This document shows, one piece after another, positions 1 through 28,151 of a stretch of DNA of 64,000 bases. The DNA comes from Solibacteraceae bacterium. GTDB lineage: Bacteria > Acidobacteriota > Terriglobia > Bryobacterales > Bryobacteraceae. Position numbers and translations under genes: made by a program. Position 1 is the first letter of the stretch. Each line of letters starts with the position of its first letter. The notes beneath the pieces were generated by a model. That model searched no databases, was not told the origin of the DNA, and saw nothing but the letters and a program-made list of their open reading frames with translations. Location: assembly GCA_026984795.1 (NCBI GenBank), contig JALSRK010000024.1, forward strand, positions 62,001-126,000, given 5' to 3'.

Positions 1-660
<660 letters not shown>

Positions 661-950: not shown

Positions 951-960
<10 letters not shown>
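685..960 (-). CDS. hypC: HypC/HybG-family hydrogenase assembly chaperone
   Basis: Small chaperone that shuttles the Fe(CN)2CO moiety between HypD and the large-subunit precursor of a [NiFe] hydrogenase. The 91-residue product opens with the diagnostic (M)CLAVPG, so the essential Cys2 follows the initiator directly. That fixes the start at GTG 960 rather than at an upstream in-frame codon. Length and the YAIVHVGFAISKLDEEAA segment are typical of the family. The first ten bases overlap the end of hypB, indicating translational coupling. No hydrogenase structural subunit is inside the window, so the client enzyme is unknown. Confidence 0.96.
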
Positions 961-1643
<683 letters not shown>

Positions 1644-1670
1644 CGTCCAGCCCCTCGAGGATCTCGCCTC

Positions 1671-2018: not shown

Positions 2019-2209
2019 GGAACGTCCTGTTGTTCTCAGTGTCGCAGGCGCGCTCAGGCGGGGCAATCGGCGGCCGCGGGGCCGGCGGACCGCCCGGCAG
2101 CCATCTTTACTTTCTCCAGCCGCCGGAAAGCGTCAGAATGAATGACGAACCCGGCGGCCGGACGCCGGAGTGACCATTCGGAGCCCAGGAGCGAAGTTCC
2201 ATACGAGTC

Positions 2210-3334
2210 ATGAACACGAACTGGGCGCAGGTTCTACTTGCTCTCGCCGTGGCCGCCCCCGGCTGGGGGCAGCTTCCCGCAGGGAACTGGCGGACGGACC
2301 TTTCGAAACGGTCGATCGAGCTTTCCGAGCTGCGCGGCGGCGGTCCGCCCAAGGACGGGATACCGGCGATCGATCACCCGAAATTCGTTTCGCCGGAACA
2401 GGCGGCCGAGTGGCTCGACGCGAAGGAGCCGGTACTGGTTGTCGAGTATCAGGGGGAGGCCCGCGCTTACCCCTTTCAGATCATGATCTGGCACGAACTC
2501 GTCAACGACACGATCGGGGATCTGCCCATCCTGGTGAGCTACTGCCCGCTTTGCAACAGCGCCATCGTCTTCGAGCGGCGGGTGGACGGCGAGACTTACT
2601 CTTTCGGGGTCTCCGGGCTGTTGCGGGAAAGCGACATGGTAATGTACGACCGCCCCACGGATTCCTTGTGGCAGCAGGTGACCGGCGAAGCGATCGTCGG
2701 CGTGATGACGGGGAAGCGGTTGCGGGTGGTCTCGAGCCAGACCGTCGCCTTCGGCGACTTCGCCCGGGCCTTCCCCGAAGGGAAGGTGCTCAGCCGGGAG
2801 ACAGGCCACCGGCGGCCCTACGGGACGAACCCTTACGTCGGCTACGAATTCGGAGAGTTCCTCTTCAAGCCGAAAGTGCCGAAGGGCCTCAAGGCTCCCA
2901 AGGAGCGCATCGTGGTGGTGGAGTCCGGCGGGGAGGCGACGGCCTATTCGTTCGGGCTGCTGCGGCGGGAAGGCGTGATCGAGGGCGTGACGGGAGGACT
3001 GCGCTACGTGGTGTTCCATCAGCGCGGGACGGTAACCGCGCTCGACCGCAGCCGGATCGCCGATTCGCGCGACGTGGGTTCGGTGGGCGTCTTCGTGCCG
3101 GAAGTAGAGGGCCGCCGGCTGACGTTCCAGCGCAAAGGCGGGCGGATCCGGGACCGCGAGACGGGCAGCGAGTGGAACGTCCTCGGCTTCGCGACCAAGG
3201 GGCCCCTGGAAGGGAAGCGTCTGAAGCCGGTGCGCCACGGGGTCTATTTCGCCTTTGCCTGGCTCATCTTCAACCCGGAGACTGAATTGATCACCAAGCC
3301 GGGCCAGGCGCGCGAACGCGCGCGCTCCCGCTGA
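2210..3334 (+). CDS. Secreted DUF3179-domain protein
   Basis: A 374-residue protein with an N-terminal signal peptide (hydrophobic VLLALAVAAPGWG, cleavage near residue 20), followed by a DUF3179 domain. The family hallmark is VSYCPLCNSAIVFER near residue 110, then FGVSGLLRESDMVMYDR and DSLWQQVTGEAIVG. DUF3179 proteins have no established biochemical role; the two close cysteines in CPLC suggest metal or redox chemistry, which is inference. It is divergent from hypA and 44 bases upstream of xdhC. No strong Shine-Dalgarno precedes ATG 2210. Confidence 0.88.
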   Translation: MNTNWAQVLLALAVAAPGWGQLPAGNWRTDLSKRSIELSELRGGGPPKDGIPAIDHPKFVSPEQAAEWLDAKEPVLVVEYQGEARAYPFQIMIWHELVNDTIGDLPILVSYCPLCNSAIVFERRVDGETYSFGVSGLLRESDMVMYDRPTDSLWQQVTGEAIVGVMTGKRLRVVSSQTVAFGDFARAFPEGKVLSRETGHRRPYGTNPYVGYEFGEFLFKPKVPKGLKAPKERIVVVESGGEATAYSFGLLRREGVIEGVTGGLRYVVFHQRGTVTALDRSRIADSRDVGSVGVFVPEVEGRRLTFQRKGGRIRDRETGSEWNVLGFATKGPLEGKRLKPVRHGVYFAFAWLIFNPETELITKPGQARERARSR

Positions 3335-3378
3335 GGCGCGCTCCCGGGAGCCCGCAGCGCTACAATACAACCAGACCT

Positions 3379-4215
3379 ATGGACGTCTACGAGGAGCTTG
3401 TGCGCCTGCGCCGGCGGGGCGAAAAGTGCGCGCTGGCGACCATCGTCTCGGTGAACGGGTCGATCCCCTCGTATCAGAACGCCAAGATCCTCGTGCGGCA
3501 AGACGGTTCGTTCGTGGGAACGGTCGGCGGCGGGTGCGTCGAGGCCGAGGTGTACAACGCCGCCCGCGAGGTGATGGAGACCGAGAAAGCCAAGATGCTC
3601 GAGTTCTCCCTGGGGCAGGACGCGGCGTATGAAAACGGGCTCATCTGCGGAGGGCAACTGAACGTGTACGTGGAGCCGGTGGTGCCGCAGCCGTGGGCCT
3701 ATCTGTTCGGGGCGGGCCATGTCTCCCGGGCCATCGCCCAGATCGCGCAGCTGGCGGGCTTCGCCACGGTGGTGGTGGACGACCGGGAGCGGTTCGCCAG
3801 CCGCGAGCGCTTCCCCGAAGCCGAAGAGGTCCACGCGGGCGAATACGAGGAGATCTTCCCGCGGCTGGAGATCAACTCTTCGAGCTACTTGATTATCGTG
3901 ACGCGCGGACACCGCGACGACATGCGGGTGCTGCGGCTGGCGGTTCAGTCGCCGGCGCGTTTCATCGCCATGATCGGCTCGAAGCGCAAGGTCATCAGCA
4001 TCGTAAGAGAGCTCGAAAAGGAGGGCATCCCGCGGGAGAAGTTCGAGCGCCTGACGGCTCCCATGGGGCTGGACATCGGGGCGGTGACGCCGGAGGAGAT
4101 CGCCGTCAGCGTGGTGGCCGAGATGATCGCCGTCCGCCGGCAGCCGGATTCCAAATGGCGGGAGCTCTCCAAGTCGATCTTCACCAACCCCTCCTTGCGC
4201 GGTCTGCTGAAATAG
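3379..4215 (+). CDS. xdhC: XdhC/CoxI-family molybdenum cofactor maturation protein
   Basis: XdhC/CoxI proteins bind Moco and promote its sulfuration and insertion into xanthine dehydrogenase/CO dehydrogenase-type enzymes. The 278-residue protein has the N-terminal XdhC/CoxI domain (LATIVSVNGSIPS, VGTVGGGCVEAEV) and the C-terminal Rossmann domain (YLFGAGHVSRAIAQIA; end motif GLDIGAVTPEEIAVSV). A MobA-like gene follows 4 bases later, the usual partner. No molybdenum hydroxylase subunit is in the window. A TACAAT hexamer at 3361-3366 could be a -10 box giving a leader of about six bases. Confidence 0.93.
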   Translation: MDVYEELVRLRRRGEKCALATIVSVNGSIPSYQNAKILVRQDGSFVGTVGGGCVEAEVYNAAREVMETEKAKMLEFSLGQDAAYENGLICGGQLNVYVEPVVPQPWAYLFGAGHVSRAIAQIAQLAGFATVVVDDRERFASRERFPEAEEVHAGEYEEIFPRLEINSSSYLIIVTRGHRDDMRVLRLAVQSPARFIAMIGSKRKVISIVRELEKEGIPREKFERLTAPMGLDIGAVTPEEIAVSVVAEMIAVRRQPDSKWRELSKSIFTNPSLRGLLK

Positions 4216-4219
4216 CTGC

Positions 4220-4819
4220 TTGGCCGTGACGATCGCCGGGATCATCCTCGCCGCCGGAGCCGGGCAGCGGGTGGGCTCTCCAAAAGCGCTGCTCGAGCTC
4301 GACGGAGAAACCTTCTTCGACCGGATGGCGGCGGCGATGCAAGACGCCTGCGACCCGATCCTGGCCGTACTGGGCCATCACGAAGAGGCGGTGCGCCGGG
4401 GCGTGCGGCTGGCCGGCGCAGTCCGTTTCGTGATCAATCCCCACCCGGAACGCGGGATGTTGAGCTCGCTGCAGTGCGGGCTGCGGGAGCTGCCGGCGGA
4501 TGCCGCGGCGGCGATCTTCTGCCCGGTGGACTATCCGCTGGTGAGGGCCGCCACAGTGGAGGCGCTGGCGGGAGCGTTCCGGGCGCAGCCGGAGACTCGG
4601 GCGGTCGTGCCGACGTGCGAAGGCCGCCACGGCCACCCGGTGCTGGTGTCCCGGCAGGTGATCGATGAACTGCTCGGGCTCCGGCCCACGGCCAGCCCGC
4701 GGGAGGCTATCCGCCGGTTCCGCAATTCCACTGTCTATGTGGAAACGGGCGATCCCGGGGTCTTGCGCGATGTGGACACGCCGGCGGACCTGCGCCGGTT
4801 GGAGGGACAGGACCGATGA
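4220..4819 (+). CDS. MobA/MocA-like molybdenum cofactor nucleotidyltransferase
   Basis: GT-A fold NTP transferase of the MocA/MobA type, which adds CMP or GMP to molybdopterin to form a dinucleotide cofactor. The nucleotide-binding signature IILAAGAGQRVGSPKALL is at the N-terminus, with PVDYPLV (metal-binding Asp) and GHPVLVSR further in. At 199 residues it has normal length. The start is TTG 4220 or GTG 4226, neither with a strong ribosome-binding site; coupling to xdhC is likely. Cytidylyl transfer is the better guess because of the XdhC neighbour, but the sequence alone does not separate MocA from MobA. Confidence 0.88.
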   Translation: MAVTIAGIILAAGAGQRVGSPKALLELDGETFFDRMAAAMQDACDPILAVLGHHEEAVRRGVRLAGAVRFVINPHPERGMLSSLQCGLRELPADAAAAIFCPVDYPLVRAATVEALAGAFRAQPETRAVVPTCEGRHGHPVLVSRQVIDELLGLRPTASPREAIRRFRNSTVYVETGDPGVLRDVDTPADLRRLEGQDR

Positions 4820-7164
4820 CGCGCCGGGCGTCGCGCTACGCGGTAGCGGGGGTGGCCCTGGCCACCGCCCTGGCGCTCGCGGCGCCGTTTTTCCCCATCG
4901 CCTCCCTGAACGCCCCGGTGCGCGCGGCGCTCGAGAGAGCGCTCGGCCGGCGGGTGGAAATCGGCGGCCCGCTGCGCTTCCGTCTGCTCCCGTCACCCGC
5001 AGTGATCGTCGAGAATGCAGTAATCTCCGACGAGGCCGCCTTCGGAATCGAGCCGTTCGCGTACGTCCCCGAGCTGGAAATCTCACTGGATCCCTTCGGC
5101 TTGCTCCGGGGGCGCATGACGTTCCGCGGCCTGACGCTCGTCGAGCCGAGCATGAACCTGGTAAAGAACGCGGAAGGCGAATGGAACTACCCGGGCCTGC
5201 TGCAACGCCTCTTTGCCGCCCCGGCGTCGGGACGGGCGCTGCTGCCCCGGATCGACTTGCGCGCCGGACGCCTGAACTTCAAGTTCGGGGACCGGAAATC
5301 CGTGTTTTATCTCTCGGACGCCGATATCGCCGTCGGCCCGGAACCGGGGAAAGAGCCGGCGCTGCGCTTCCGTTTCTCGGCCTCGCCGTCGAGGACGGAT
5401 CGCGCGGCCCAGGGCTTCGGCCGCTTTTCCGGAAACGGCCGATTCGTGTACTCGAAGGCTGGGGAACACCGCTTGCGGATGGTAGTACGGCTCGAACGCA
5501 GCGCCATCCCCGAGTTACTGACCTTGTTCGGAGGCTATGGGGCCGGCCTTGGCGGATTCCTCGCCTCCCGGGCCGAATTCGAGGGGCCTCTGTCCCGGGT
5601 GCGGATCCGCGGGGAGCTCCAGTTGGCCGAAGTGGACCAGCGGTTCATCCTGCCGCCACGGTCCGGAGAATGGGCCTTGAACTACGAGGGCACGCTGGAC
5701 CTGATCGGGCAGGAGGTAAGGCTCCGGACGCGGCCGCGGCGGGAACGGCTGCCCGTCTCGATCCGTTTCTTCGCCGGCGATTATCTCAGCCGCCCGCGGT
5801 GGGCCATCGTGGCTGCGACGGACCGGCTGCAACTGGAGACGATCCCGGCCCTGGCTTCGGAACTCGGCGTGCCGCTGTTTACGGGGCTGAAGCTACAGGG
5901 GTGGCTGTCCGGAGCGGTGGGCCGCTCGGCGGATGGGCGGATCCAGGGCCGCTTCCGTGTTACAGACGTCGATCTCAGCGCCCCCGGCGGGCAAAGGGTC
6001 CACGTGGCGGCAGCGACGATTACGGCATTGGATGACGTTCTCAGCGTGGCTCCGGCCCCGATTCTTGTGGAGGGGCGTGAAGCGGCCACTGTCAGCGGGT
6101 CCTATTCCCGGACAGCCCAGGAGTTGAACATCATCGTCGGCTCCCGGCAGTTCCCCATCGAGCGGTTCGTCTCCTTCTGGGAAGCAATGGCGCGCTCGGA
6201 AGCGCCCCGGGCGTTCCGGCTGGGCTCCGGAGGCCATTGGACCGGCATTTTGCGCTTTCGTGGCACTCCCGAAGGAGAGTTCTGGAGCGGCAACATCGTG
6301 CTCAGCGACCGCCGGCTCGCTGTGCCGGGAATCGATGGAGAGGTCCGGCTTGTCCGAGCCGAGACGGACGCTTTGGGACGCGAGGTCCGCCTCGACGCCC
6401 GGGTGGGCGGCATCACCGTGAAGGGCCGGTGGGCGGAGCCGGACCGGCTGGACCTAAACTGCAGCGAAGCGGCGATAGAGGATCTGGAAAAACTGCTCCA
6501 CCCGTCTCTGTCCTGGGGTCCGACGGGCCTGATCGCCCGCACCTTGCGGCTGCGCCGCGGGAAGCCGCCCAAGTGGCTTGCGCACCGGCATGTAAAGGGA
6601 ACGTTCACCGCTCAAACCGTTACTGCCGGCCCGGCCCGGCTCACTGGGGTGGCGGCCCGGTACTACTGGAACGGTCCCAGTTTGGAGATCCATCTTGACC
6701 ACGCCTCCACCTCGCCGGGCAGCTTCGCCGGCGCCCTTCACGTAGATCTGACGAAGGGCCAGCCACGCTGGACGGCGTCCGGAAGCCTCCGGGGATTCCT
6801 CTGGGACGGCGCGGAACTGCAGGCCGTGGGCAGCGTGGAAACACAAGGGGCAGGAGTGGAGGCAATCGCCTCGCTCAGGGGCGAGGGGGAGTTTGCCGCG
6901 AGGTTCGTGGAACCGGCGGCGGGGATCCGGGCGGCGAGCGGATGTTTCGAGGTCCACATGGCCGGGTTCCGACCTCAGTTCGTCCTGCCGTGCCTTCGCC
7001 TGGCGACCCGAGGGAGGGGCGTTCTCGACGGCTGGGGCCGCGTCGATACGCGGGGAAGAATTCGGCTCCGCCTCTTCGACGCCCGCCGCTGGTACGAAGC
7101 CTCGGGCCGGCTGGTTCCGCTCGAGTTGGCCGTCCGGCCCGGCAGTCCCCGTGGGATAGAATGA
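4816..7164 (+). CDS. AsmA-family inner-membrane-anchored envelope protein
   Basis: A 782-residue protein with an N-terminal membrane anchor (about residues 8-28) followed by the AsmA signature: LGRRVEIGGPLRFRLLPSP, then a beta-rich body containing ENAVISDE, LRGRMTFRGLTLVEPS and GEWNYPGL. AsmA-like proteins are periplasm-spanning and implicated in lipid transport or outer-membrane assembly. The ATG overlaps the stop of the preceding nucleotidyltransferase (ATGA), so it is co-translated with xdhC-mocA although functionally unrelated. A second, larger member of this superfamily (TamB-like) lies at 59588. Confidence 0.87.
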   Translation: MTRRASRYAVAGVALATALALAAPFFPIASLNAPVRAALERALGRRVEIGGPLRFRLLPSPAVIVENAVISDEAAFGIEPFAYVPELEISLDPFGLLRGRMTFRGLTLVEPSMNLVKNAEGEWNYPGLLQRLFAAPASGRALLPRIDLRAGRLNFKFGDRKSVFYLSDADIAVGPEPGKEPALRFRFSASPSRTDRAAQGFGRFSGNGRFVYSKAGEHRLRMVVRLERSAIPELLTLFGGYGAGLGGFLASRAEFEGPLSRVRIRGELQLAEVDQRFILPPRSGEWALNYEGTLDLIGQEVRLRTRPRRERLPVSIRFFAGDYLSRPRWAIVAATDRLQLETIPALASELGVPLFTGLKLQGWLSGAVGRSADGRIQGRFRVTDVDLSAPGGQRVHVAAATITALDDVLSVAPAPILVEGREAATVSGSYSRTAQELNIIVGSRQFPIERFVSFWEAMARSEAPRAFRLGSGGHWTGILRFRGTPEGEFWSGNIVLSDRRLAVPGIDGEVRLVRAETDALGREVRLDARVGGITVKGRWAEPDRLDLNCSEAAIEDLEKLLHPSLSWGPTGLIARTLRLRRGKPPKWLAHRHVKGTFTAQTVTAGPARLTGVAARYYWNGPSLEIHLDHASTSPGSFAGALHVDLTKGQPRWTASGSLRGFLWDGAELQAVGSVETQGAGVEAIASLRGEGEFAARFVEPAAGIRAASGCFEVHMAGFRPQFVLPCLRLATRGRGVLDGWGRVDTRGRIRLRLFDARRWYEASGRLVPLELAVRPGSPRGIE

Positions 7165-8059: not shown

Positions 8060-10223
8060 CTTGTGTGCGCCGCGGGCGTTCGGCCGGCCGGCCGGCGGCG
8101 CGGCCGAGCTGATCCAGTCCTACCGGAGCAAGCCGTCGCCGACGACGCGGGCGGCGCTGGTCCAGTTCGCCGAGTCGCACCCCAGCGGCGAAGAAGGGGC
8201 GCTGGCGCTGCTGGCGCTGGGTGCGGCCGAAGCCGATGGCGGAGATCCGGCGAAGGCGGAGGCGTGGCTGCGGGAGGCCAAGAAGCGGCTCCCGCTCGTC
8301 GCCGACTATGCCGCCTACCACCTTTCCCGCGCCCTGGCGGCCCAGGACCGCCATCGGGAGGCAATCGCCGAGCTCGAGTGGGTGCTCAATTTCGACCCCC
8401 GCTCTCCATACCAGTTACCGGCCATCCTCCGCGCCGGGGAAGTCTATCTCGACAGTGGAAACCCGGCGCTCGGAGTGCGGCTGATGCGCCGCTATGCCGG
8501 GTTGCTGCCGGCCCCTGAGGGACTGGCGATCCAGGCCCGGCTCGAGCAGGCCGCCGGAATGCTGAGCGCCGCGGCGGCAACCTGGCAAGAGGTTTACTAC
8601 GGGTACCCCACCTCGGCCGAAGCGCGGGAAGCGTCGAAGGCCTTAGCCCGGCTGAAGACGCGGCTCCGCAGCCGTTACCCGCCGGTGACGGCGGCAGCCA
8701 TGTTTCGCCGCGTGGACAAGCTTATCCAGGCGCGCCGGCACTTGACCGCCCGGCGCGAGCTGCAGCGGATGACGACGATGCTCGGCGGGGCGGACCGCGA
8801 CCGGGCCCGCGTCTGGCTGGGGAAGGCGCGGCATGTACGGCATCACGACACGGTGGCCTACCGGTGGCTGAAATCGCTGAAAGTCGGCGACGCCGAGGCC
8901 GACGCCGAACGGCTGTACTATCTGCTGGCCGCCGCCCGGCGCCTGGGCCGCAAGAGCGAAGTGGTGCGGATCGCTCGGGAACTCGGCCGGAAATACCCGC
9001 ACTCGGAGTGGCGCCTGGAAGCCCTTGTCTCGGCCGGCAACATGTATCTGCTCGAGAACGATCACGAGCGTTTCCTGCCTTTCTTTCGCGCCTGCGCCGA
9101 GGAGTTTCCGGAAAGCAGCCGGGCGTCTTACTGCCACTGGAAGATCGCCTGGAGCCACTACATCCGGCGGCGCCCGGAGGCGGCAAGGCTGCTGCGGCTT
9201 CACGTGGAGCGTTATCCGGCCTCGAAGAAGGCCCCGGCGGCCCTGTATTTCCTCGGCCGTCTCGCCGAGGATTCCGGTAATCGGGCCGCGGCGGCGGCCT
9301 GGTATCGCGAAGCGGCCCACCAGTATCCCAATTGGTATTACGGTTTCCTCGCCCAGGACCGTCTACAGGCGCTGGGCAAGACCGGCGGGGACGGCGAGGC
9401 GGCGGCTGAAGTCAGCCGGTTCCTCTCACGCATCGAGTTCCCTCTCCGCCGCCATCGCAAGAACTTCACCCCGACCGCGCTCACCCAGACCCGCCTCCGG
9501 CGCGCCCGCCTGCTGCTGGCCGCCGGTTTTCAGTCGTGGGGCGAGCGGGAGCTGCGGTGGGGCGCCCGCACCGGGGCCCAGGGACCGATTCTGGCTATGG
9601 AACTGGCCCGGGCGGCAGCGGCAGCCGGGCGCTATGGCGAGAGCATCCGGTTCATCAAAGCACTGGCTCCGGGTTACCTTTCGATGGCGCTCGAGGACGC
9701 CCCGGAGGAGTTCTGGCGGCTCGCTTTCCCGCTGCCGTATCGCTCGATTCTGGAGAAGTATGCCCGCCGCCGAAAGCTCGATCTCTATTTTCTCGCGGCC
9801 CTGATCCGACAAGAGTCGGAGTTCGACGCCCGCGCCGTTTCCCGAGCCCGGGCGCGCGGCCTGACCCAGATCCTTCCCTCTACCGGCCGCCTGCTGGCGC
9901 GGAAGCTACGCATCCGCCACTACCGCACCTCGCACCTCTACCGGCCTGAGATCAACGTCAACATGGGCACCTACTACTTGCGTAGTTTGATCGATGACCT
10001 CGACGGCCACACTGCGGCTGCGCTCGCCTCGTACAATGCCGGCCGGAACCGGGTAAAACGCTGGCTGGCCTGGGCGGAATTCCGCGAGCCGGCCGAGTTT
10101 GTCGAAACGATCCCGTTCACGGAGACGCGGAGCTACGTTCAGACGGTTCTCCGCAACACGGAGATCTACCGCCGGCTGTACGGCGCCAGGGAGCGGGCGG
10201 CGTTGAAGCGGCCCTCCAGCTGA
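8016..10223 (+). CDS. Soluble lytic murein transglycosylase with TPR-like helical array (Slt70-type)
   Basis: Periplasmic peptidoglycan-cleaving enzyme of the SLT/GH23 family. From ATG 8016 the 735-residue product begins with a signal peptide (MRRCLVPTILGLWLSLCAP); an ATG at 7983 is in frame but would place eleven polar residues in front of it. Residues about 35-540 are TPR/superhelical repeats. The catalytic domain follows: LIRQESEFDARAVS with catalytic Glu near 600, GLTQILPSTG, VNMGTYYLR and ALASYNAGRNRVKRWL. All GH23 motifs are intact. The gene overlaps its upstream neighbour in a different frame. Confidence 0.94.
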   Translation: MRRCLVPTILGLWLSLCAPRAFGRPAGGAAELIQSYRSKPSPTTRAALVQFAESHPSGEEGALALLALGAAEADGGDPAKAEAWLREAKKRLPLVADYAAYHLSRALAAQDRHREAIAELEWVLNFDPRSPYQLPAILRAGEVYLDSGNPALGVRLMRRYAGLLPAPEGLAIQARLEQAAGMLSAAAATWQEVYYGYPTSAEAREASKALARLKTRLRSRYPPVTAAAMFRRVDKLIQARRHLTARRELQRMTTMLGGADRDRARVWLGKARHVRHHDTVAYRWLKSLKVGDAEADAERLYYLLAAARRLGRKSEVVRIARELGRKYPHSEWRLEALVSAGNMYLLENDHERFLPFFRACAEEFPESSRASYCHWKIAWSHYIRRRPEAARLLRLHVERYPASKKAPAALYFLGRLAEDSGNRAAAAAWYREAAHQYPNWYYGFLAQDRLQALGKTGGDGEAAAEVSRFLSRIEFPLRRHRKNFTPTALTQTRLRRARLLLAAGFQSWGERELRWGARTGAQGPILAMELARAAAAAGRYGESIRFIKALAPGYLSMALEDAPEEFWRLAFPLPYRSILEKYARRRKLDLYFLAALIRQESEFDARAVSRARARGLTQILPSTGRLLARKLRIRHYRTSHLYRPEINVNMGTYYLRSLIDDLDGHTAAALASYNAGRNRVKRWLAWAEFREPAEFVETIPFTETRSYVQTVLRNTEIYRRLYGARERAALKRPSS

Positions 10224-18149: not shown

Positions 18150-19925
18150 TCAGCTTCGCCGCGCGGTCACCAGGACCGTGCCCGCATGAAGGTTTTGCCA
18201 TTTGATGGTATCGAACCCCAGCGGGGCCAAGGCGCTGCGCAGGCGGTCGATCGACCAGGTCCGGCACCCGCCGCGGCGCATGCGCCGCCCCAGAGCGCCG
18301 AGCACCACCTCGGGAGGGGGCAACACGCCGCCCGGTAAGAAGGAGTCATGCAGCGCCAGCAAGCCACCCGGCCGAAGCCACCGGGCCGACCATTCCAGGA
18401 ACTGCTGGACCTCGCCCCGGTTGGAGGAACCCAGCAAGCCGGAAAGGATCACCGCCCCAAAAGAGCCCGGGGCCGCAGCCAGTCCCGGCTGCAGGGACAG
18501 CGGGACGCCGGGGTTGCGAAACGGGTTCACAGCGGTCACCGAGAGTTTCGGCCACCGCCGGCCGATGGCTTCCCGGTAGCGCTCGCCCCCGTAGCCGACG
18601 ATCAGCGCTGGATCTTTCCCGCCCAGGTCCAGCTTGTCAGCCACCGCCGGGGCGGCGAACCGGGCCAAGGCCTCGCAAGACCTCTGGTGGAGCGCCTCCT
18701 CCGGAGCCGGAATCTGGATGAAGTCGCGGCAGCCGCCGCGCACGTACGCTTTCAGGTCAGACCATCCGGCGGCGAGCCGGCACTGGTACAGGACAGCCTC
18801 CCGCAGGCTCTCCGGGGCATCGCTGCGGAGGTACCGGGCGGCCAGCTCCAGGTTGCGGTAGCCGTCCGGGGTCTTCTCGAGCACGCCGAGGGCCGTCAGG
18901 GCCTCCATCACCTCCGCAGCGGCGGCGGCATCCCAGCCTCGCCCGGAAGCAAGTTCCCCGGCCGAACGGGGACGGGCGAGCTCGTCGAAAAGCCGGCACT
19001 CGAGGGCGAAGCCGAGTACCTGGGTGCCGAGGCCGGCGGTGGCCAGGCGGAACAACTGGTCCGGCGCAGGGGCGGGAGCGAAGCGGCTGCTGCCGTCGGG
19101 CCGCCGCCGGAGGTCGCGCTCGGCCCGGGCGAGCTTGCCGCGCATCCGCACGACCTCGCCGATTACCAGCGTGGCCGGGGGCCGGACGCCGGCTTCCTTC
19201 ACTTTGCGCCCAATATCGCTCAGGGTTCCGGTGACGGCCAGCTCGTCGTGCCAGAAGGCCATCTGAATCATCGCCGCCGGCGTTTCGGGATCCTTGCCGT
19301 GACGAATGAGCGTCTCGGCGATGGTTTCGACGTTGCTGACCCCCATCAGGAAAACGAGCGTGTCGATGCCGGCCAGGGCCTGCCAGTTCACACGATGATG
19401 ATCCTTCTTGGCTTCGTGTCCGGTGACGACGGCCACCGAGGAAGCCGCGCCGCGGTGGGTGACGGCGATGCCGGCGCTGAGCGGAGCGGCGAAAGCGGAG
19501 GTGACGCCGGGGATCACTTCGAAAGGGACGCCGCGGTCCGCCAGGTATTCGGCCTCCTCGCCCCCGCGGCCGAACACGAAAGGATCTCCTCCTTTCAGCC
19601 GCACCACGATCTTGCCCTCCCTGGCCTTGCGGACGAGCAGCTCCTGGACCTCTTGTTGCCGCGAGTCGTGGCGGCCCACCGGCTTGCCCATGTAGATCCG
19701 TTCCGCGGAGGGCTTGGCCAGGGCGAGGACCTCTTCCTGGATCAGGCGGTCGTAGACGACGACGTCGCAGGTGCGGAGCAGTTCCGCGGCTTTCAGGGTC
19801 AGCAGCTCGGGATGGCCCGGACCTGCTCCTACGAGATAGACTTTTCCGAGTTGAATCGGCGTCTCTCCTTCGCTGGCGTTCTCGTCCAGCCCGGCGGCCG
19901 GACTCCTTCGCCGCCGCCCCCACAA
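18150..19925 (-). CDS. Fusion: uroporphyrinogen-III C-methyltransferase (SUMT/CobA) + O-methyltransferase-like domain
   Basis: N-terminal half (about residues 25-270): a complete SUMT domain that would methylate uroporphyrinogen III to precorrin-2 with SAM, on the way to siroheme or cobalamin. Motifs: VYLVGAGPGHPELLTLKA, RLKGGDPFVFGRGGEEAEYL, VIPGVTSAFAAPLSAGI, THRG. C-terminal half (about 300-591): a winged-helix dimerisation region (ATAGLGTQVLGFALECRLFD ... ALTALGVLEKTPDGYRN) and a Rossmann methyltransferase-like region (PALIVGYGGERYREAIG, LRPGGLLALHDSF) as in acetylserotonin-type O-methyltransferases. The usual SUMT fusion partner is HemD, which is absent. The only conventional start is TTG 19925; ATT at 19856-19854, behind a GGAGAG, would give the family-typical N-terminus. 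Product of the second domain unknown. Confidence 0.88.
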   Translation of the reverse strand: MWGRRRRSPAAGLDENASEGETPIQLGKVYLVGAGPGHPELLTLKAAELLRTCDVVVYDRLIQEEVLALAKPSAERIYMGKPVGRHDSRQQEVQELLVRKAREGKIVVRLKGGDPFVFGRGGEEAEYLADRGVPFEVIPGVTSAFAAPLSAGIAVTHRGAASSVAVVTGHEAKKDHHRVNWQALAGIDTLVFLMGVSNVETIAETLIRHGKDPETPAAMIQMAFWHDELAVTGTLSDIGRKVKEAGVRPPATLVIGEVVRMRGKLARAERDLRRRPDGSSRFAPAPAPDQLFRLATAGLGTQVLGFALECRLFDELARPRSAGELASGRGWDAAAAAEVMEALTALGVLEKTPDGYRNLELAARYLRSDAPESLREAVLYQCRLAAGWSDLKAYVRGGCRDFIQIPAPEEALHQRSCEALARFAAPAVADKLDLGGKDPALIVGYGGERYREAIGRRWPKLSVTAVNPFRNPGVPLSLQPGLAAAPGSFGAVILSGLLGSSNRGEVQQFLEWSARWLRPGGLLALHDSFLPGGVLPPPEVVLGALGRRMRRGGCRTWSIDRLRSALAPLGFDTIKWQNLHAGTVLVTARRS

Positions 19926-20045: not shown

Positions 20046-22352
20046 TCACGTTCGCATGTGGGTGAACAGATAGAGCCCGGCCAGGGCGAAGATGGCGTCT
20101 GGGGCCCAAGCCGCCAGCACCGGCGGCAACTGGTTCAGGTTGCCGACCTGCTCGAACAACTGGCTGACCACCCAGTAGGCGATCGCGATTCCGAAGCTCA
20201 CGGCGACTCCGGCCATCGCTCCCCGGGGACCGGCCAGGAACGCGAAGGGTACCGAGATGAGCGCCATGATCAGGGCGAACAGGGGCACCGAGAACTTCTT
20301 GTGGAACCGGACCTGCAGCCGGACGGTGTCGAACCCGCTCTGCCGCAACTCGCGGATGTAGGCGGCCAACTCGGAAAAGTTCATCTGCTGGTCTTGCTTG
20401 ACTTCCTTGAGGAAGTAGCCCGGCGGCTCGTTCAACTCGGAGAAGGTGCGGGCTTCGCCGGCGAAATCGTCATACCGAACCACGCGCACTCCGTTGAGTT
20501 CGCGGCTCCAGCCGTCCTGGAAGATCCAGGTGTTGAGCGACGGCGCCCACCGCGCCCGCTCGGCGTAGATGTGGCGGCGGAGGTGGAACGTGTTCGGCTC
20601 CAGTTCGAAGACCGTAATGCCGTACATCACTTGCTCGGTCGGATCGAAATAGCGGTAGTAGTAGATCCGTGAACCTTGGCCGAAAATCCATTGCCGTTCC
20701 GGGCTCAGGTACGTTTGCGGCGGCCGGCCTTTGATCTCGCTGCGGATGCCGTCCTGGATGCGGTTGGCCTCGGTGACGTAGTAGTGGTCGAAGGCGAACA
20801 GGGCGCCGCTCAGCACGAGGCCCGTCAGCAGGACGGGGACCGAAAGGCGGTACAAGCTGATGCCGCAGGCTTTCACGGCGGTGACCTCATTGTATTTGGA
20901 CATCACCCCGAAGGTCACCAGAACGGCCACGAGGACGCTCATGGGCGCCGAATCGTAGATCAGTTTCGGCGTCAGGAAGAAATGGTAGGTGAGCACCCGG
21001 GACATCGGTATCTGATTCTTGACGATGTCGCCGAGAAGCTCGAAAAACGTGAAGACATGGGTCAGCGCCACGAAGCTGGTGAGCAAGACGATGAAATAGA
21101 AAAGGAAACTGCGCAGGACGTAGGCGTCGATGATCTGGGGCCACAGCGGCGCGAAACTGCGGCCCCGGCCGGTCCCCGTCCGGTGGGCCGGCCACCAGCG
21201 CCGCAGCGTTTGGAGCGCCTCCACCGCTCGCGAGCGCAGCCACATTCCGAGATCGTGGGCGCCGGGGCGCTCCTGGCGCCGGATCAGCGCCAGCCCCAGC
21301 AGACTCAAGACGATGTTGGGGCTCCACACCGCCACTTCCACCGGCAGCCGCTCCTGCTTGGCCATGCCGATCAAACTGACCAGGGCCATGTAGTAGAGAA
21401 AGGCCACCATCACCGTGAGCACGAAAGCGGAAGACTTGCCACCAGCCCGCGTCGAAACGCCGAGGGGCACTCCGAGCAGCGCCAGCAGCAGGCAGGCCAG
21501 CGGCAGGGCCAACCGCTGGTGGAGCTCGATGCGCGCCTCCACAGACTTGCGCGCTTCGGCGATCAGCGGGCCCGTGTCCATCCAGGTGAACGGTTTGGCC
21601 TGCTCTTTGTGAGGAGCGCGAGCCTCCAGTACGCGCTCCCCCCGCGGGAAGGCGTAGCTGTTGTACTGGTTGTCCTCGCCCACCACGTACGAGCGTCCGT
21701 CGAACATCGAGAGTTGGATCCGGTTGTTGTGGGCGTCGGCTACGGCGACGGCCTCGGTGGCCACGGTGATCCGGGGGTGGGTCTCGGAGGCCTCTGTACT
21801 GCTGGAAGACGCCGTCTCGGCCAGGAAGACGTGCCGCCAGCGGACGATGGGGCCGGAGATCACGTCGCCGACGTAGAGGATCGTGTTCGGGAACGACTCT
21901 TCGAAGACCCGCGGCTGGATCTCCGCGGTGATCTGCTCGGCCAGCAGCCGGTTGAGCACCCGGTAAGTCTCCCGGATCGAGAGCGGCGTCAGCCAGAGGG
22001 TAGCGGCCGCGGCGGCGACAGTGGCGATCGAAGCGAGCGCCAGCATCGGCACGAGCAACCGCCGGCTGGGAACGCCGGCCGCCCGCAACGCGATCACCTC
22101 CCCGTCGCTGGACATCCGGTTCGTCGCCAGCAGCACCCCGACCAGGACGCCCACGGGCACCGAGAAGGTCAGCGCTGGAGGCAGCACGAGCAGAAACAAG
22201 TACGACACGGTGCCGAGATCGGCGGAGCTGCGCACCAGCAGTTCGAACAGCCGGCCCAGCTTCTGGAGGAACAGAACGAAGGTGAACAGGGTCGTGCCCA
22301 GCAGGGCGCTGGAAGCCACTTCGCGAAAGATCTTGCGGTCGAGAAGCCCCAT
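20046..22352 (-). CDS. Fused LptF-LptG lipopolysaccharide export permease
   Basis: LptF and LptG are inner-membrane permeases that, with ATPase LptB, extract LPS and feed the Lpt bridge. Here one 768-residue protein carries both. Residues 1-375 form an LptF-like half (MGLLDRKIFREVASSALLG at the start; three N-terminal helices, a periplasmic beta-jellyroll around 150-265, three C-terminal helices). After a basic linker near 385-405, a second half starts at IIDAYVLRSFLFYFIVLL and repeats the pattern to FALAGLYLFTHMRT. The start ATG has a GTGGAGA just upstream. It is 9 bases after the TldE-like gene. LptB, LptA and LptC are not in the window. Confidence 0.92.
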   Translation of the reverse strand: MGLLDRKIFREVASSALLGTTLFTFVLFLQKLGRLFELLVRSSADLGTVSYLFLLVLPPALTFSVPVGVLVGVLLATNRMSSDGEVIALRAAGVPSRRLLVPMLALASIATVAAAAATLWLTPLSIRETYRVLNRLLAEQITAEIQPRVFEESFPNTILYVGDVISGPIVRWRHVFLAETASSSSTEASETHPRITVATEAVAVADAHNNRIQLSMFDGRSYVVGEDNQYNSYAFPRGERVLEARAPHKEQAKPFTWMDTGPLIAEARKSVEARIELHQRLALPLACLLLALLGVPLGVSTRAGGKSSAFVLTVMVAFLYYMALVSLIGMAKQERLPVEVAVWSPNIVLSLLGLALIRRQERPGAHDLGMWLRSRAVEALQTLRRWWPAHRTGTGRGRSFAPLWPQIIDAYVLRSFLFYFIVLLTSFVALTHVFTFFELLGDIVKNQIPMSRVLTYHFFLTPKLIYDSAPMSVLVAVLVTFGVMSKYNEVTAVKACGISLYRLSVPVLLTGLVLSGALFAFDHYYVTEANRIQDGIRSEIKGRPPQTYLSPERQWIFGQGSRIYYYRYFDPTEQVMYGITVFELEPNTFHLRRHIYAERARWAPSLNTWIFQDGWSRELNGVRVVRYDDFAGEARTFSELNEPPGYFLKEVKQDQQMNFSELAAYIRELRQSGFDTVRLQVRFHKKFSVPLFALIMALISVPFAFLAGPRGAMAGVAVSFGIAIAYWVVSQLFEQVGNLNQLPPVLAAWAPDAIFALAGLYLFTHMRT

Positions 22353-22361: not shown

Positions 22362-24161
22362 TCAGTGTACGGTTTCGCGCGGGGGAGGGGGAACCACCGG
22401 CGGCTTCGGCCAGTCCCGCTCCACTGGGGCCAGTTCCATGTCTTCCACCAGGACCGACGGCGCCACCACCGACATCGGTACGATGTAGCCCCCGGCGCCG
22501 ATCAGCGACAGCGGCGCGTTGCTCCCCAGAAACTGGAACACGTGCTCTTCGCTGGAGGCGGCCACGATGTCGCGCAGCAGCCGTGAGGAAACGCGGCGGA
22601 ACTCCAGGCCCCGCACCAGCTCCTCGCGTCCGTCGGGGTAGAGCCGGTAAACGGCGATCGGAGGGCTGAACAGCCGGGCGCCGCCCTGCTGCCGGCGGCG
22701 CTGCGAACGGCGATGGATCTCCTCCGGCGAGGCCGACGACGGGAAGTCCAGCCGGCGGACTACGAGGCCGTACGGTTTCCCCCGCTGCTCGCACAGTTCC
22801 AGCAGCTTGCGCCGCAACTGTTGCGGCTCCACGGTTTCGCGGGCTTTGACAATCAAATTGCTGAACTTCGGCGTGTTCGCCCCGTAACGGCCCGGCAAGC
22901 GGGCTCGCCCATTGGACCGGGTGAAGTTCCGGACGGGCTGCCGGGTGAGCAGGAAGGCCTTCAACAGGCCCTTTTCGACCACCTGCACGGGCTCAGGTTC
23001 GACGCCTTCGAGATCAAGACGGTAGTGTCCGACGAGGGGCCGCCCGTCCCATTCGGTGAGAGTGGGATCATCAACCACATCCATCCACTCAGGCAGGACG
23101 CGGGCGCCCAAGCGAGCGGCCAGCTCACTTTCCCGGAAATCGGCGCTCCGGCCGGGCTGGGACACGGGACGCCGGGTCAAGCCGAGGTTCTCCCCGAGCA
23201 ACTGGGCGAACAACTGCGGCGCGGCCGCGTCTTCAAACAGCACAGGGCCGGCGTAAGGCTCGCCCAGCGAAGCGGCGGCCAGGTTCTGGATCCGCCGGGC
23301 CGTCTCGTCCACGCGCCGTTCCAATTCGTCCGGGGAAGGCAGATCACCGATCCGGAGCGCCTCAATCACGTCGGCGTCGCGAACGTGCATCCCGTCCGGC
23401 GCCCGCCCCTCGCCGCGGAACTCGAAGAAGTGCAGTATCTCCGGGTAGCGCGCTACCGTCCCTTCGGTGTTCATGAGGTAAGCGGTAGCCTGGATGGATT
23501 CGAAACGGACCTGCGAGCGCACCACCGCCGGATAGCGGGCGAAGACCGCCGACAGTCCTCGCACAAGGCGCGTCCACTCGTCTTCGGAAACGTCCTCACG
23601 GCGGGGCGGCTCGATCAAGACCACCGGTTCGGCCCGGCTGAAGTCGGGAAGGTCTTCGCGCTGCGTCACATTCTTGAGCGCCGCCCGCTTCCGCGCGATC
23701 GCCGCCATCGCGCCCTTGAACACGCGGTCGGTGGCCAGCCAGAAGTAGACCCTCAGGGCAAACCGATCGTCGTCGAGCGGAGCCTGTCCGATGAAGCCGC
23801 GCCGGGCGAAGAAGTCACTGTAGACGTAGTTGGTATTGTCGAATTCGTAGCTGCCCACCCGGACGTCGATCCGCGGCACGCGCATCCGGGTCCGCGCCCG
23901 GCTGACGATGGCGCCCAGGGAAGCGCGTACCGAAAAGTTCTCCGTATCGTCCAGCGCATACTGGATGAAGTAGACGTCGTCGGCCAGAGAGACCAGGCGC
24001 AGGGCCCGCGCCCGCTCCATCTCGGCGTTCATCGCGGTGAGCACGGCTTCGGCGGCGATCTGCTCAGCGACGGCTGGAGACCGCACCGTCTGCCCCGCCG
24101 CCGCCCAGGGTCCCAGCAGCGCCAGCGCCGATATCGATGTCACTCGCCGGGTCCAGTGCAT
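22362..24161 (-). CDS. Exported TldD/PmbA-superfamily protein, catalytically degenerate (TldE-like)
   Basis: A 599-residue paralogue of the next gene upstream, with a signal peptide (SALALLGPWAAAGQ, cleavage near 24). It keeps the TldD/PmbA fold hallmarks (FSNLIVKARETVEPQQLRRK; AVYRLYPDGREELVRGLEFR) but has lost the zinc ligands: the HExxxH position reads roughly APQLFAQLLGEN (about 314-325), and the C-terminal metal cysteine segment is FLGSNAPLSLIGAGG. In E. coli, inactive TldE pairs with active TldD; this pair has the same logic, but exported. Nine bases separate it from the tldD-like gene and nine from lptFG, so the three are surely co-transcribed. Substrate unknown. Confidence 0.85.
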   Translation of the reverse strand: MHWTRRVTSISALALLGPWAAAGQTVRSPAVAEQIAAEAVLTAMNAEMERARALRLVSLADDVYFIQYALDDTENFSVRASLGAIVSRARTRMRVPRIDVRVGSYEFDNTNYVYSDFFARRGFIGQAPLDDDRFALRVYFWLATDRVFKGAMAAIARKRAALKNVTQREDLPDFSRAEPVVLIEPPRREDVSEDEWTRLVRGLSAVFARYPAVVRSQVRFESIQATAYLMNTEGTVARYPEILHFFEFRGEGRAPDGMHVRDADVIEALRIGDLPSPDELERRVDETARRIQNLAAASLGEPYAGPVLFEDAAAPQLFAQLLGENLGLTRRPVSQPGRSADFRESELAARLGARVLPEWMDVVDDPTLTEWDGRPLVGHYRLDLEGVEPEPVQVVEKGLLKAFLLTRQPVRNFTRSNGRARLPGRYGANTPKFSNLIVKARETVEPQQLRRKLLELCEQRGKPYGLVVRRLDFPSSASPEEIHRRSQRRRQQGGARLFSPPIAVYRLYPDGREELVRGLEFRRVSSRLLRDIVAASSEEHVFQFLGSNAPLSLIGAGGYIVPMSVVAPSVLVEDMELAPVERDWPKPPVVPPPPRETVH

Positions 24162-24170
24162 GGCTCTTTC

Positions 24171-25859
24171 CTACGGGGCCTCCGCCGGCAGCAACGGGCG
24201 CGGCAGGATCGGCGGGCGGTCTTGTGCGCTCGCCTTCCGCTGGACCTCGATCTCGGAAACCAGCAGCGCCGGCGAGACGGCCGAGACCGGTACACTGCCG
24301 CTCTCGGCGCCGCAGTAACCGTTGAACACGCCTGGCTCGTTCGACGTCGCGAGGATCTTGGAGAAAGCCGCCAGGGGCGTTCCCACGATGTCGGCGCCAC
24401 GGACCAGCTCATCCGGCCGGCCGTCCGGGTAGACGCGATAGACGACGAGCGGAATCACCTTGAACGCCTGGATCCCGCGCCGGCCGGTCATCGTGTAGCC
24501 GCCGGTTACCTCTGCGAAATAGAAGCCGTATTCTTTGCCTTGCCTGCGGATCTCCTCGATCAGCATCTCCCGGAGGCGGTCCGCACTCACCTGCCGCCGG
24601 GACTGCACAATCAGATTCGACTGGCGCGAAAGCACTTCCCGGCCCGGCTGCCGGCGCCCGTGGCCGTTGGAATGGGCGATCCCGGGCACCGGGAGTCTGG
24701 ACATCAGAAACGTCTTCATGATCCCGTTCTCGACAACGGCGACCGGGCGCGCCGGGACACCCTCGTCATCGTAGTCGTACCAGCCCATCAGGTCGGTTCC
24801 GCCGAAGCTCCGCCGCGTGGGATCGAAGACGACGGAAAGGAAGCCCGGAAGCACTGGTTTGCCGAGACGATCACGGAACGTATGGCCTTCGGAAGGATCC
24901 CGGAGGCGGTGCCCTTCCACACGGTGGCCGAAGATCTCATGAAAGAAGACGCCGGCCGCCCGGCCGGAGAGAATGGCCGGGGCCACATACGGCTCGACGA
25001 GCGGGGCATCCACGAGTTTCGTCACCAAGCCCGCCACCCGCCGGGCCGCGGCGCGCAGGATCTCGGGTCCGGGCAGCCCGTCCGGCGCGTGGGCTTCGAA
25101 GGACTCGAGCGTGAACAGATCCATTCCGTCGGGGGCCTTGGCTCGGGCCGAGATCGAGACCCGGGCCGAGGTCCAGCCGTGGACCAGCCGCGTGCCCTCG
25201 GAGGTCACCAGGTATTTGACCTGCCGCTGGATGGCGACGCGGACGCCGCAGCCGAGCACCTGGGGGAAGCCACGGAACTCGCTGGAAACGCTCCGGACGA
25301 TACGGCGCCATTTCCCGGCGTCGAAAGTCACATTGGGCGGGAGCCGGTAGTCCTCAACGGGCTCTTCCCGGCTGAAGTCGCCTGGGCTGTCGCTCTGCTT
25401 GACGCGCATCTGCCGGTCGGTCTGGATCTTGATGAGCCGTTCCGAGCCGAGCCGGTAGACGCGGTCGGTCTCCAGCCACAACCGCCGGCGGATGGCCGCT
25501 TCCCGATCCTCGATGGGAAGGGCCCGCCCGGAAGTGAAGCGGGGGAAGTAGCCCTCGATCACGTGGTAATTGTCCAGTTCGGGAGAGCCGACCCGCACAG
25601 TGACGTCCAGGACACGGCTGCGCCGGGACGATTCCCCCTCGAGAGCCCCCCAGGCGGCGGCCACCGTGTTGGTGGTGGAGTCCGTGACGGCGTAACCCAG
25701 GAAATAGGGAGAGGGGGAGGCTTTCTGGTTCAAAATGTTGAAGTTGCGCTGGAGTTCCGCGGAAAGGATCCGAATCAGATCGGGGGGCTCTGCCTGAAGA
25801 AGCGCCGCCGCAAGCAGCGCCGCAAGGGCGAGGAAGACGCGCCCGGCCCGAATCCGCAC
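24171..25859 (-). CDS. Exported TldD-family metalloprotease (catalytic partner)
   Basis: TldD is a zinc protease that, with TldE, trims unfolded peptides in the cytoplasm. This 562-residue version starts with a signal peptide (VFLALAALLAAALLQA), so it should act in the periplasm. The metal site is intact: HEIFGH at residues 307-312 and the third ligand in NGYCGAESGSVPV (Cys516). Other family motifs are SNLIVQSRRQVSADRLREML and EYGFYFAEVTGG. The start is GTG 25859; the open frame continues to 26357 but that part is antisense-like arginine-rich sequence overlapping the response regulator. A TATTCT hexamer seven bases before the GTG is a candidate -10 box. Confidence 0.88.
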   Translation of the reverse strand: MRIRAGRVFLALAALLAAALLQAEPPDLIRILSAELQRNFNILNQKASPSPYFLGYAVTDSTTNTVAAAWGALEGESSRRSRVLDVTVRVGSPELDNYHVIEGYFPRFTSGRALPIEDREAAIRRRLWLETDRVYRLGSERLIKIQTDRQMRVKQSDSPGDFSREEPVEDYRLPPNVTFDAGKWRRIVRSVSSEFRGFPQVLGCGVRVAIQRQVKYLVTSEGTRLVHGWTSARVSISARAKAPDGMDLFTLESFEAHAPDGLPGPEILRAAARRVAGLVTKLVDAPLVEPYVAPAILSGRAAGVFFHEIFGHRVEGHRLRDPSEGHTFRDRLGKPVLPGFLSVVFDPTRRSFGGTDLMGWYDYDDEGVPARPVAVVENGIMKTFLMSRLPVPGIAHSNGHGRRQPGREVLSRQSNLIVQSRRQVSADRLREMLIEEIRRQGKEYGFYFAEVTGGYTMTGRRGIQAFKVIPLVVYRVYPDGRPDELVRGADIVGTPLAAFSKILATSNEPGVFNGYCGAESGSVPVSAVSPALLVSEIEVQRKASAQDRPPILPRPLLPAEAP

Positions 25860-25894: not shown

Positions 25895-26581
25895 TCAGCG
25901 CCCGCCGGCTTCGTCGCTCCGGCGGAGAGCGATTTCGGTCTGCTCGACTGGGTTCTGCGGGAGTGTGAGCAAGCCTTTTTCCTGCATGCCGGTGAGGGCA
26001 AGGCCATAACGCCCGCGGACACCGGTCTTCTCGAAAATGTGTTTCAAATGGATCTTCACCGTGCCGGGCCGGATGCCGAGTTCGCGGGCGATTTCCTTGT
26101 TTTTCAGGCCTTGCTCCACCAATTCGAGCACTTGTCTTTCGCGGGGCGTGAGGCCGGAGCGGGAATGCCTCGGCGAAGTAACGACATCCCGGAGCAGTTC
26201 GTCTTCCATCCAGCTCGTACCCCGCGCGACGGCCCGCAAGCAAGCGAGGACTTTCGGTATGGGGGCGCTCTTGCGCACGATGCCGCGCACGCCTCTTTGC
26301 AGCAGGCGGAGCGCCTCGGGCTCGGAGATGGAATGGCCCCAGACGACGACGGCGCAAGGCCGGCCGGCGTCCCGCCAGCGGGCCAGCCAGTTCAACACGG
26401 CGTGGGCTCCAAAGGACTTGTCGAAAACGAAGATGTCCGGAGAGCCGTCTGCAGCCAGTTGGATCGCCTCGGCCGGCGACGCCGTGATATGGGTGAGCTC
26501 CATGTCGCCGGCTTCCGCCAGAACGGATCTAAGCCCTTGTGCCGTAATGGGTTGGCTGTCGCAGATCCCAACCGTCGTCAT
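25895..26581 (-). CDS. NarL/FixJ-family response regulator
   Basis: A 228-residue two-domain regulator. Receiver domain 1-125: acidic Asp8, probable phospho-acceptor Asp54 in FVFDKS and Lys103 in VRKSAP. LuxR-type HTH about 143-192: LTPRERQVLELVEQGLKNKE followed by IARELGIRPGTVKIHLKHIF. The receiver is somewhat divergent (FVFDKSFG instead of the usual DxxMP). No histidine kinase is adjacent, so it is an orphan. AAGGAG precedes ATG 26581. It is 35 bases upstream of the tldD-like gene and may lead the same unit, though that gene also appears to have its own -10 box. Confidence 0.92.
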   Translation of the reverse strand: MTTVGICDSQPITAQGLRSVLAEAGDMELTHITASPAEAIQLAADGSPDIFVFDKSFGAHAVLNWLARWRDAGRPCAVVVWGHSISEPEALRLLQRGVRGIVRKSAPIPKVLACLRAVARGTSWMEDELLRDVVTSPRHSRSGLTPRERQVLELVEQGLKNKEIARELGIRPGTVKIHLKHIFEKTGVRGRYGLALTGMQEKGLLTLPQNPVEQTEIALRRSDEAGGR

Positions 26582-26909: not shown

Positions 26910-28151
26910 ATGGCGAAATCCGTGACCAGCCCGCCGAACGTAAACCTCGGAGCGTTACTCGTTTGCCCGAACGCCAAGATGATGGCCGAGCTGCTGCCCC
27001 TGCTGACGCACAACATCCCGGGGGTGCAGCTTCACTCTGTCAAGGAGTATCCGGAGAGCAGCTTTCTGGCCGACTTCGTCGTCAACCAGCACCCCCGGCT
27101 GTGTTTTCTCGATGTGGATACGGACCCAGAGCGAGCCCTGGGGCTGATCCGCGAGCTGCAACTGTTGGATCCGAGCCTGCCCATCATCGTTCTGTTGGGG
27201 CAGAACGAGCCGGATTTGATTCTTCGCTGCCTGCGCCAGGGCGCCACCGAATTTCTGATGCAGCCGTTCACGGCTGAAGAGCTGGCGCCGGTGCTGCAAC
27301 GGCTCTCTCAGCTCAGTCCCTCGATGAACTACGGCAGCGGCGGGCGGGTGATCTGCGTGGCCCCGGCCAAAGGGGCCTGCGGCGCCAGCACCATCGCCGC
27401 CAACCTGGCCACGCGCAAGAAGACGCTCGGCGCCAACCGGCTGCTGCTGGCCGACCTCGACCCGCTCACGGGCACGATCTCTTTCCTGCTGAAACTCAAG
27501 TCGAACTACAGCATCCTGGACGCCATGAACCTGGCCACCAGTCTGGACCGGGACCTCTGGGACGGCGTGGTGTCGAGCTGGAACGGGATCGACGTGGTTC
27601 TGGCTCCCGAGAACCCGATGGATTCGATCAGCGAACTCCAGGATCCGGCCCCGGTGCTGGAGTTCGCCCGCCAGCTCTACGACGTCATCATCGTGGATTG
27701 TGCGGGCCTGTTCGGCGATTGGGGTCTGGCCCTGGCGCGGGTAGCCACGGACCTGTTGCTGGTGACCACCAACGAACTCCCGGCCCTGCAGAGCACTCAA
27801 CGGGTACTTGGACACCTGGAGCGGAACCGGGTGGAACGATCCAAGGTGCGTCTGGTCGTGAATCGTTACAGCCGGGACGTGGGCCTCAGCACCGACGCAA
27901 TCTCCACCGCCTTGCACACCGACGTATTCGCGGTGATCCCGAGCGATTACGAGGCCGTGCAGAAAGCTCTCGTGGAGGGCAAGCCGGTGAATTCGAGCAG
28001 CGCTTTCGGCAAGCACCTTTCGAAGCTCGCCCGGCGGCTGGCCGGCGCCGACGAAACCGCCGACCACGAGACAGCCCACAAACGGGGAAAGGCCAAGGGA
28101 GCTTCCCTCGCCGGTCTGTTTTCCTCCCTGTTCTCGCGAGCCCCTTCCTGA
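26910..28151 (+). CDS. CpaE/TadZ-like receiver-ATPase (MinD/ParA superfamily)
   Basis: A 413-residue protein with a receiver-like N-terminal domain (1-135: LGALLVCPNAKMMAELLP, LCFLDVDTDPERA, IIVLLGQNEPD, ATEFLMQPFTAEEL) and a MinD/ParA-type ATPase (about 145-375). The Walker A is a deviant, APAKGACGASTIAANLA, and Walker B reads DVIIVDCAGLFG. This is the architecture of CpaE/TadZ, which places Tad/Flp pilus machinery at the pole. No other tad/cpa gene lies in the window, so this copy is an orphan and may localise something else. Its C-terminal tail (380-413) is basic and low complexity. Confidence 0.87.
   Translation: MAKSVTSPPNVNLGALLVCPNAKMMAELLPLLTHNIPGVQLHSVKEYPESSFLADFVVNQHPRLCFLDVDTDPERALGLIRELQLLDPSLPIIVLLGQNEPDLILRCLRQGATEFLMQPFTAEELAPVLQRLSQLSPSMNYGSGGRVICVAPAKGACGASTIAANLATRKKTLGANRLLLADLDPLTGTISFLLKLKSNYSILDAMNLATSLDRDLWDGVVSSWNGIDVVLAPENPMDSISELQDPAPVLEFARQLYDVIIVDCAGLFGDWGLALARVATDLLLVTTNELPALQSTQRVLGHLERNRVERSKVRLVVNRYSRDVGLSTDAISTALHTDVFAVIPSDYEAVQKALVEGKPVNSSSAFGKHLSKLARRLAGADETADHETAHKRGKAKGASLAGLFSSLFSRAPS

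Follow-up and report, generated by a model that had tools for sequence, protein, structure and literature searches.

What would a pair of TldD-like proteins do outside the cytoplasm? The question is raised by two adjacent genes, herein called A and B, in a stretch of 64,000 nucleotides from a Solibacteraceae bacterium (GenBank assembly GCA_026984795.1, contig JALSRK010000024.1, positions 62,001 to 126,000 of the forward strand; hereafter the window). Their products resemble the two halves of the cytoplasmic TldD/TldE assembly of Escherichia coli (TldE is also named PmbA), and yet both begin with what appears to be a signal peptide. An earlier examination of the sequence (the original prediction) had placed two open reading frames (ORFs) here, had read both products as exported, and had tied them to envelope biogenesis through a neighboring gene for the export of lipopolysaccharide (LPS). 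The two frames lie at the positions and on the strand that it gave (Table 1). We consider it likely, with a probability of about 0.72, that A and B form an exported, periplasmic heterodimeric metallopeptidase with the TldD/E fold, which would thread peptides and serve the general disposal or trimming of unfolded ones.

Both proteins can be assigned to the TldD family. The C-terminal domain of the TldD/PmbA family (PF19289; cut-off 22) was matched by A at 94.5 bits and by B at 56.5 bits. The AlphaFold2 (AF2) model of A, with a predicted local distance difference test (pLDDT) score of 90.7, superimposed on E. coli TldD with a Z score of 38.6 and a root-mean-square deviation (rmsd) of 3.3 over 449 residues; that of B (pLDDT 86.1) gave a Z score of 32.5 and an rmsd of 3.7 over 440 residues. 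PmbA-type chains matched the B model less closely (best Z 27.5 for 1vl4, next 26.6 for 3qtd), and the first unrelated rows of the structure search stood at Z 5.3 and 4.9. By these models, A and B are TldD-family proteins whose overall fold is that of the solved TldD/TldE structures. The N-terminal domain, PF01523, was matched by neither protein at E values up to 1; it was matched only twice in the source genome, both times on contig C49. Its absence from A and B may reflect divergence, because the A model aligns to TldD from residue 23 and the B model from residue 35. The original prediction had also described the N-termini as much longer than that of classical TldD. Judged from the aligned ranges, with TldD His262 as the reference, A has about 26 net residues before HExxxH beyond its signal peptide, and thus a longer N-terminus, but no large new domain.

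The division into an active and a dead member is nearly invariant. When 74 A-type rows (including the solo protein L073, described below) and 73 B rows are aligned, A residues 307, 308, 312 and 516 correspond to TldD His262, Glu263, His267 and Cys454, as given in passages of PMC5810440. His307, Glu308 and His312 of the HExxxH motif are present in 74/74 A-type rows, and Cys516 in 73, the exception (L072) appearing to be frame-shifted. No B row contains HExxxH. Histidine at 307 and cysteine at 516 are each found in 0/73 (with a gap at 516 in 10/73), Glu308 is kept in six and His312 in one, and no B row retains more than one of the four catalytic residues. As originally described, therefore, one member keeps HExxxH at residues 307-312 (HEIFGH) together with Cys516, and the other lacks both the motif and a cysteine at the matching position.

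A and B also travel together. Loci are numbered L and genomes G; the window's group comprises 55 loci (L033, L034, L079, L080-L129, L132 and L144) drawn by an identity of A to that of the window of about 53% or more, and is not a formal taxon, its labels being mostly Bryobacterales, Bryobacteraceae, Solibacter or unclassified Acidobacteria. Counts include near-copies, in that L127 and L033 are apparently one contig (both have 303,264 bases) and L150 recurs as L226 and L228. A is normally upstream of B. Where there is room for it, a same-strand B follows A within 2 kb at 52/53 loci of the window's group and at 64/67 others. The four loci without an adjacent B are one each from G051 and G307, which have B elsewhere (L075 and L216), the solo L073, and L105. 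When the candidate B start closest to the stop of A is taken, the two overlap by 1-4 bases in 77 of 119 pairs. In a set made up of G306 and 59 related genomes, 59 of the 60 have both partners, a few as fragments, although in about 14 the two are on separate contigs or far apart, some of which may be due to contig breaks; hence a failure of the two to co-occur elsewhere, which would have spoken against the original prediction, was not seen.

The N-termini of A and B are positively charged and have a hydrophobic core and small residues; in relatives the letters vary while this pattern is kept. A home-made, permissive rule, applied alike to four groups of proteins and accepting any start codon no more than 45 residues ahead of the conserved part, scored 111/118 A and 119/127 B as signal-like, as compared with 3/24 TldD and 0/22 PmbA. 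The seven A proteins that failed were the signal-less solo L073 and L043, L051, L096, L113, L114 and L149; a hydrophobic stretch is still present in all of these non-solo proteins except L051. The eight failing B proteins were L150 (a fusion), L093, L094, L106, L117, L122, L123 and L128. In A itself, the scripted rule found an earlier possible cleavage site, at residue 17, than the one read by eye. Mis-called starts, which would leave the proteins cytoplasmic, appear unlikely even though A starts at GTG, because the hydrophobic N-terminus recurs in relatives. The proposal that both members are exported is thus upheld at the level of sequence pattern. As a separate observation, Tat-like motifs (e.g., SRRxF) occur in 14/127 B proteins, all from loci of the window's group (L087, L094, L101, L110, L117, L119 and others), while the same pattern occurs in only 3/118 A proteins.

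Natural fusions point in the same direction. One-chain A-B proteins (L228, L229, L230, L262 at 1685-4972 and L271 at 2608-5988) are encoded in G306, G313 and G314 (3/60 genomes) and, separately, in the planctomycete G372, and so in two phyla. Each carries a single N-terminal signal peptide and has a short linker in place of B's own signal, an arrangement that fits two subunits sharing one compartment and one assembly.

Are A and B simply TldD and PmbA orthologues that acquired signal peptides? The identical ligands and the same active/dead split would be expected on that account, but trees make it hardly credible. In trees of 90 and 34 proteins (L179 and L073 being excluded from the smaller set), A joins B apart from TldD plus PmbA with support of 100/100. 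Forcing TldD with A and PmbA with B, an alternative that is the expectation from function but was named after the first tree had been seen, costs 160.9 log units (p-AU 1.3e-96, approximately unbiased test) and is rejected under the model used. The source genome, moreover, encodes a conventional TldD-PmbA pair on a different contig. However these trees are rooted, PmbA and B do not come out as sisters; therefore, on a simple reading, the ligands were apparently lost, and a dead partner arose, at least twice. To avoid a double loss would require gene conversion or regain. The likeness to TldD/TldE that had been noted at the outset thus stands insofar as one member is active and the other dead, but the arrangement does not appear to have been inherited from TldD/TldE, and the dead partner is a separate one. 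A third branch, next to A and B, consists of solo proteins that keep HExxGH but lack a signal. The branching order of the three is weakly supported (solo plus A, 74/23); the proteins labeled A, L073 included, group together at only 64/26 in the 90-row tree, where the TldD of L179 is oddly placed on a long branch.

The neighborhood bears on a different account, in which A and B serve LPS or outer membrane assembly together with the LptF-LptG permease downstream and the regulator upstream. In its favor are the tight packing of the genes in the window and the presence of LptFG after B in 49/51 loci of the window's group. Nine-base gaps had been reported throughout; they separate A from B and B from lptFG, but by ORF coordinates the regulator ends 35 bases before A. 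The lptFG neighbor is likewise present, but as one fused LptF-LptG frame. A single match covers both halves of LptF-LptG in 45 of the 48 group loci in which it is seen, the other three being cut by a contig end or split. Outside that group, LptFG follows B in 0/59 loci, and the regulator, which precedes A in 28/50 group loci, does so in 0/64; both similarity searches started from the proteins of the window, so that very divergent copies could escape. Clustering of the neighbors at 34 loci yielded no family except A and B in more than six of them. The pair does not always adjoin lptFG, and this comparison does not support the tie to envelope biogenesis. The envelope link is a local arrangement, because LptFG and the regulator are absent from these positions outside the group; a tie to LPS export is not supported and was dropped, and a role for A and B in LPS or outer membrane assembly is very unlikely.

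The reading of A and B as an exported heterodimeric metallopeptidase would run as follows. Each subunit would leave the cytoplasm through its own signal peptide and pair with the other in the periplasm to give a closed shell. A would bind zinc or iron through His307, His312 and Cys516, with Glu308 as the general acid-base, and B would complete the chamber without taking part in catalysis. In E. coli TldD/E, a narrow channel admits only unfolded peptides, which are trimmed from the N-terminus (described in passages of PMC5810440). By analogy, only unfolded peptides would be threaded into A/B, N-terminus first, and short peptides cut off. The task would probably be a general one, in which unfolded peptides and fragments in the periplasm are trimmed or disposed of, rather than a step of LPS export. 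The sequences and models show the signal-like N-termini, the ligands kept in A and lost in B, the predicted fold of each chain, and the co-occurrence, gene coupling and fusions, the last three of which support a heterodimer indirectly; the assembly, metal, chamber mechanism, activity and substrate are inferred.

Several observations weigh against this reading. Signal peptides were scored by a permissive rule of our own rather than by SignalP. No neighbor is conserved outside the window's group and the regulator is missing in 22/50 loci within it, so that the neighborhood is silent on the substrate. Some TldD-family members, moreover, are reported as N-deacetylases (in the title of a review cited in PMC10885120), and peptide cleavage is therefore not the sole possible chemistry. 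An exported amide hydrolase, resembling an N-deacetylase and having a sugar, lipid or small molecule of the envelope as its substrate instead of peptides, would accord with that title and with the position of the pair in front of an LPS permease gene in the 49 group loci; it is distinctly unlikely given that this neighbor is confined to the group and that A has the same metal ligands as the peptidase TldD. A and B could also be dedicated to the maturation of a single exported peptide or small protein, much as TldD/E matures microcin B17. TldD/E strips the leaders from several modified peptides (PMC5810440, PMC10885120, in part), and passages of PMC10885120 note that characterized proteases also often sit outside their gene clusters. 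Set against the lack of a conserved neighbor outside the window's group, such a specialized role seems unlikely.

Relatives of A are widespread: at least 551 were confirmed in contigs of GTDB genomes. By record titles, the best 80 of these belong to Bryobacterales, other Acidobacteriota, and then Verrucomicrobiota, Planctomycetota, Kapabacteria, Aminicenantes, Cloacimonadota and Zixibacteria. In a sample of the window's own phylum, 46/297 genomes had an A match at E<1e-50 (one being the solo genome G033); at 1e-40, matches were found in 6/79 planctomycetes (two being solos) and in 10/118 genomes of the phylum of G300. In 8/18 genomes searched, whose completeness is not stated, the exported pair accounts for the only two PF19289 matches. 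A spread into Pseudomonadota is not claimed. Two record titles may not fit: the genome of L158, labeled Alphaproteobacteria, falls in the same phylum as the planctomycete L131, and L146 is titled Rhodoferax. A plasmid search with A gave four matches, all weak and partial, of which three carry a TldD-family annotation. To our knowledge, all of the phyla with an A/B pair are diderm.

A broader proposal, to which we give about even odds, is that an enclosed active/dead heterodimer evolved from the TldD fold on at least two occasions, one giving the cytoplasmic TldD/PmbA and another falling in the long-form branch, and that the exported A/B acts in several phyla as a periplasmic sharpener of peptide N-termini. 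If so, peptide threading of the TldD/E type would extend beyond the cytoplasm, and envelope biology would gain a widespread family of exported proteases whose function has yet to be described. A pseudoenzyme partner arising twice in one fold would be a natural experiment on the need for the dead half, and the natural one-chain fusions would open the A/B complex directly to structure determination and assay.

The features are listed in Table 1. The receiver domain of the regulator scored 22.7 bits, below the Pfam cut-off of 30.2, while its GerE domain was above the cut-off. Two further genes of the window flank this region. One frame at 18150-19925 (minus strand) encodes a tetrapyrrole methylase domain followed by an O-methyltransferase dimerization domain. 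A CpaE-like gene at 26910-28151 (plus strand), with a receiver domain and weak matches to MinD/ParA-type ATPases, is divergent from the regulator gene in the window, as it is at many other loci of the group.

Table 1. Features of the A/B region of the window, followed by TldD-like genes of other loci
Feature	Position	Strand	Remarks
A, putative exported TldD-like metallopeptidase subunit	24171-25859	-	562 aa; GTG start; catalytic residues kept
B, putative exported partner	22362-24161	-	599 aa; ligands gone
A, predicted signal peptide, residues 1-23	25791-25859	-	From sequence; cleavage after LLQA read by eye
B, predicted signal peptide, residues 1-22	24096-24161	-	Cleavage after AAA
A, HEIFGH, residues 307-312	24924-24941	-	Two putative metal ligands and catalytic Glu
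A, Cys516	24312-24314	-	Putative third metal ligand; counterpart of TldD Cys454 by alignment; TldD ligands from passages of PMC5810440
Fused LptF-LptG	20046-22352	-	768 aa; TIGR04407 318.9 and TIGR04408 310.0 bits, both above cut-off; neighbor outside the A/B system
LuxR/NarL-type regulator	25895-26581	-	Weak receiver domain (Pfam); neighbor outside the A/B system
L221, Tat-type TldD beside PmbA	848-2363	-	
L222, Tat-type TldD beside PmbA	1221-2778	+	
L219, Tat-type TldD beside PmbA	727-2251	-	
L175, Tat-type TldD beside PmbA	282-1821	-	
L073, solo long-form protein	8268-9920		Active-site-bearing, signal-less

How, then, does the pair compare with known systems? Judged by titles and the openings of abstracts, together with passages of a few papers, no description of an exported TldD-family pair was found in the literature. 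LmbQ/LmbIH and other proteins of actinobacterial antibiotic clusters belong to the same superfamily and are usually homologous pairs (PMC4351081, in part); they differ from A/B in their context of antibiotic biosynthesis, and are set beside it by description only. In Myxococcus xanthus, MXAN_2519, annotated as "Peptidase U62", is enriched in outer membrane vesicles (PMC4158809, in part), which offers, by annotation alone, a lead to the localization of A/B.

Closer to A/B in arrangement are four loci (L175, L219, L221 and L222) in which a TldD with a Tat-type N-terminus stands beside a signal-less PmbA. The three TldD proteins that passed the signal rule all have twin-arginine motifs, and a Tat-like pattern is present in 4/24 TldD overall. 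Here a classical pair is possibly exported by the Tat system, with PmbA carried along. Like A/B, these are TldD-family pairs that may be exported; unlike A/B, they are ordinary TldD/PmbA by sequence, and the signal is of the Tat type and on the TldD member only.

The nearest relatives in the trees are the solo long-form TldD-like proteins (L073, L263-L265 and L267-L270) of Acidobacteriota and Planctomycetota. They keep HExxGH, but differ from A/B in being single and in having no visible signal peptide. No B-type partner was found in the solo genomes G033, G369, G371, G386, G413, G453 and G471 (in part at a cut-off of 1e-40), while G390, a solo-type genome, has A-B pairs as well.

The best-known relative remains E. 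coli TldD/TldE (MEROPS M103; PDB 5nj5 and others), which shares with A/B the fold, the HExxxH and cysteine ligands, and the combination of an active and a dead member (PMC5810440 and PMC10885120, in part). Cytoplasmic location, a trait of TldD/PmbA, is not what the signal-like N-termini of A and B suggest. Unlike TldD/TldE, moreover, A and B do not match the Pfam N-terminal domain and fall far below the NCBIfam equivalog cut-offs for TldD and PmbA (A, 74.1 against 635 and 42.8 against 513; B, 24.3 against 438). In the trees, A and B form a clade of their own, apart from TldD and PmbA.

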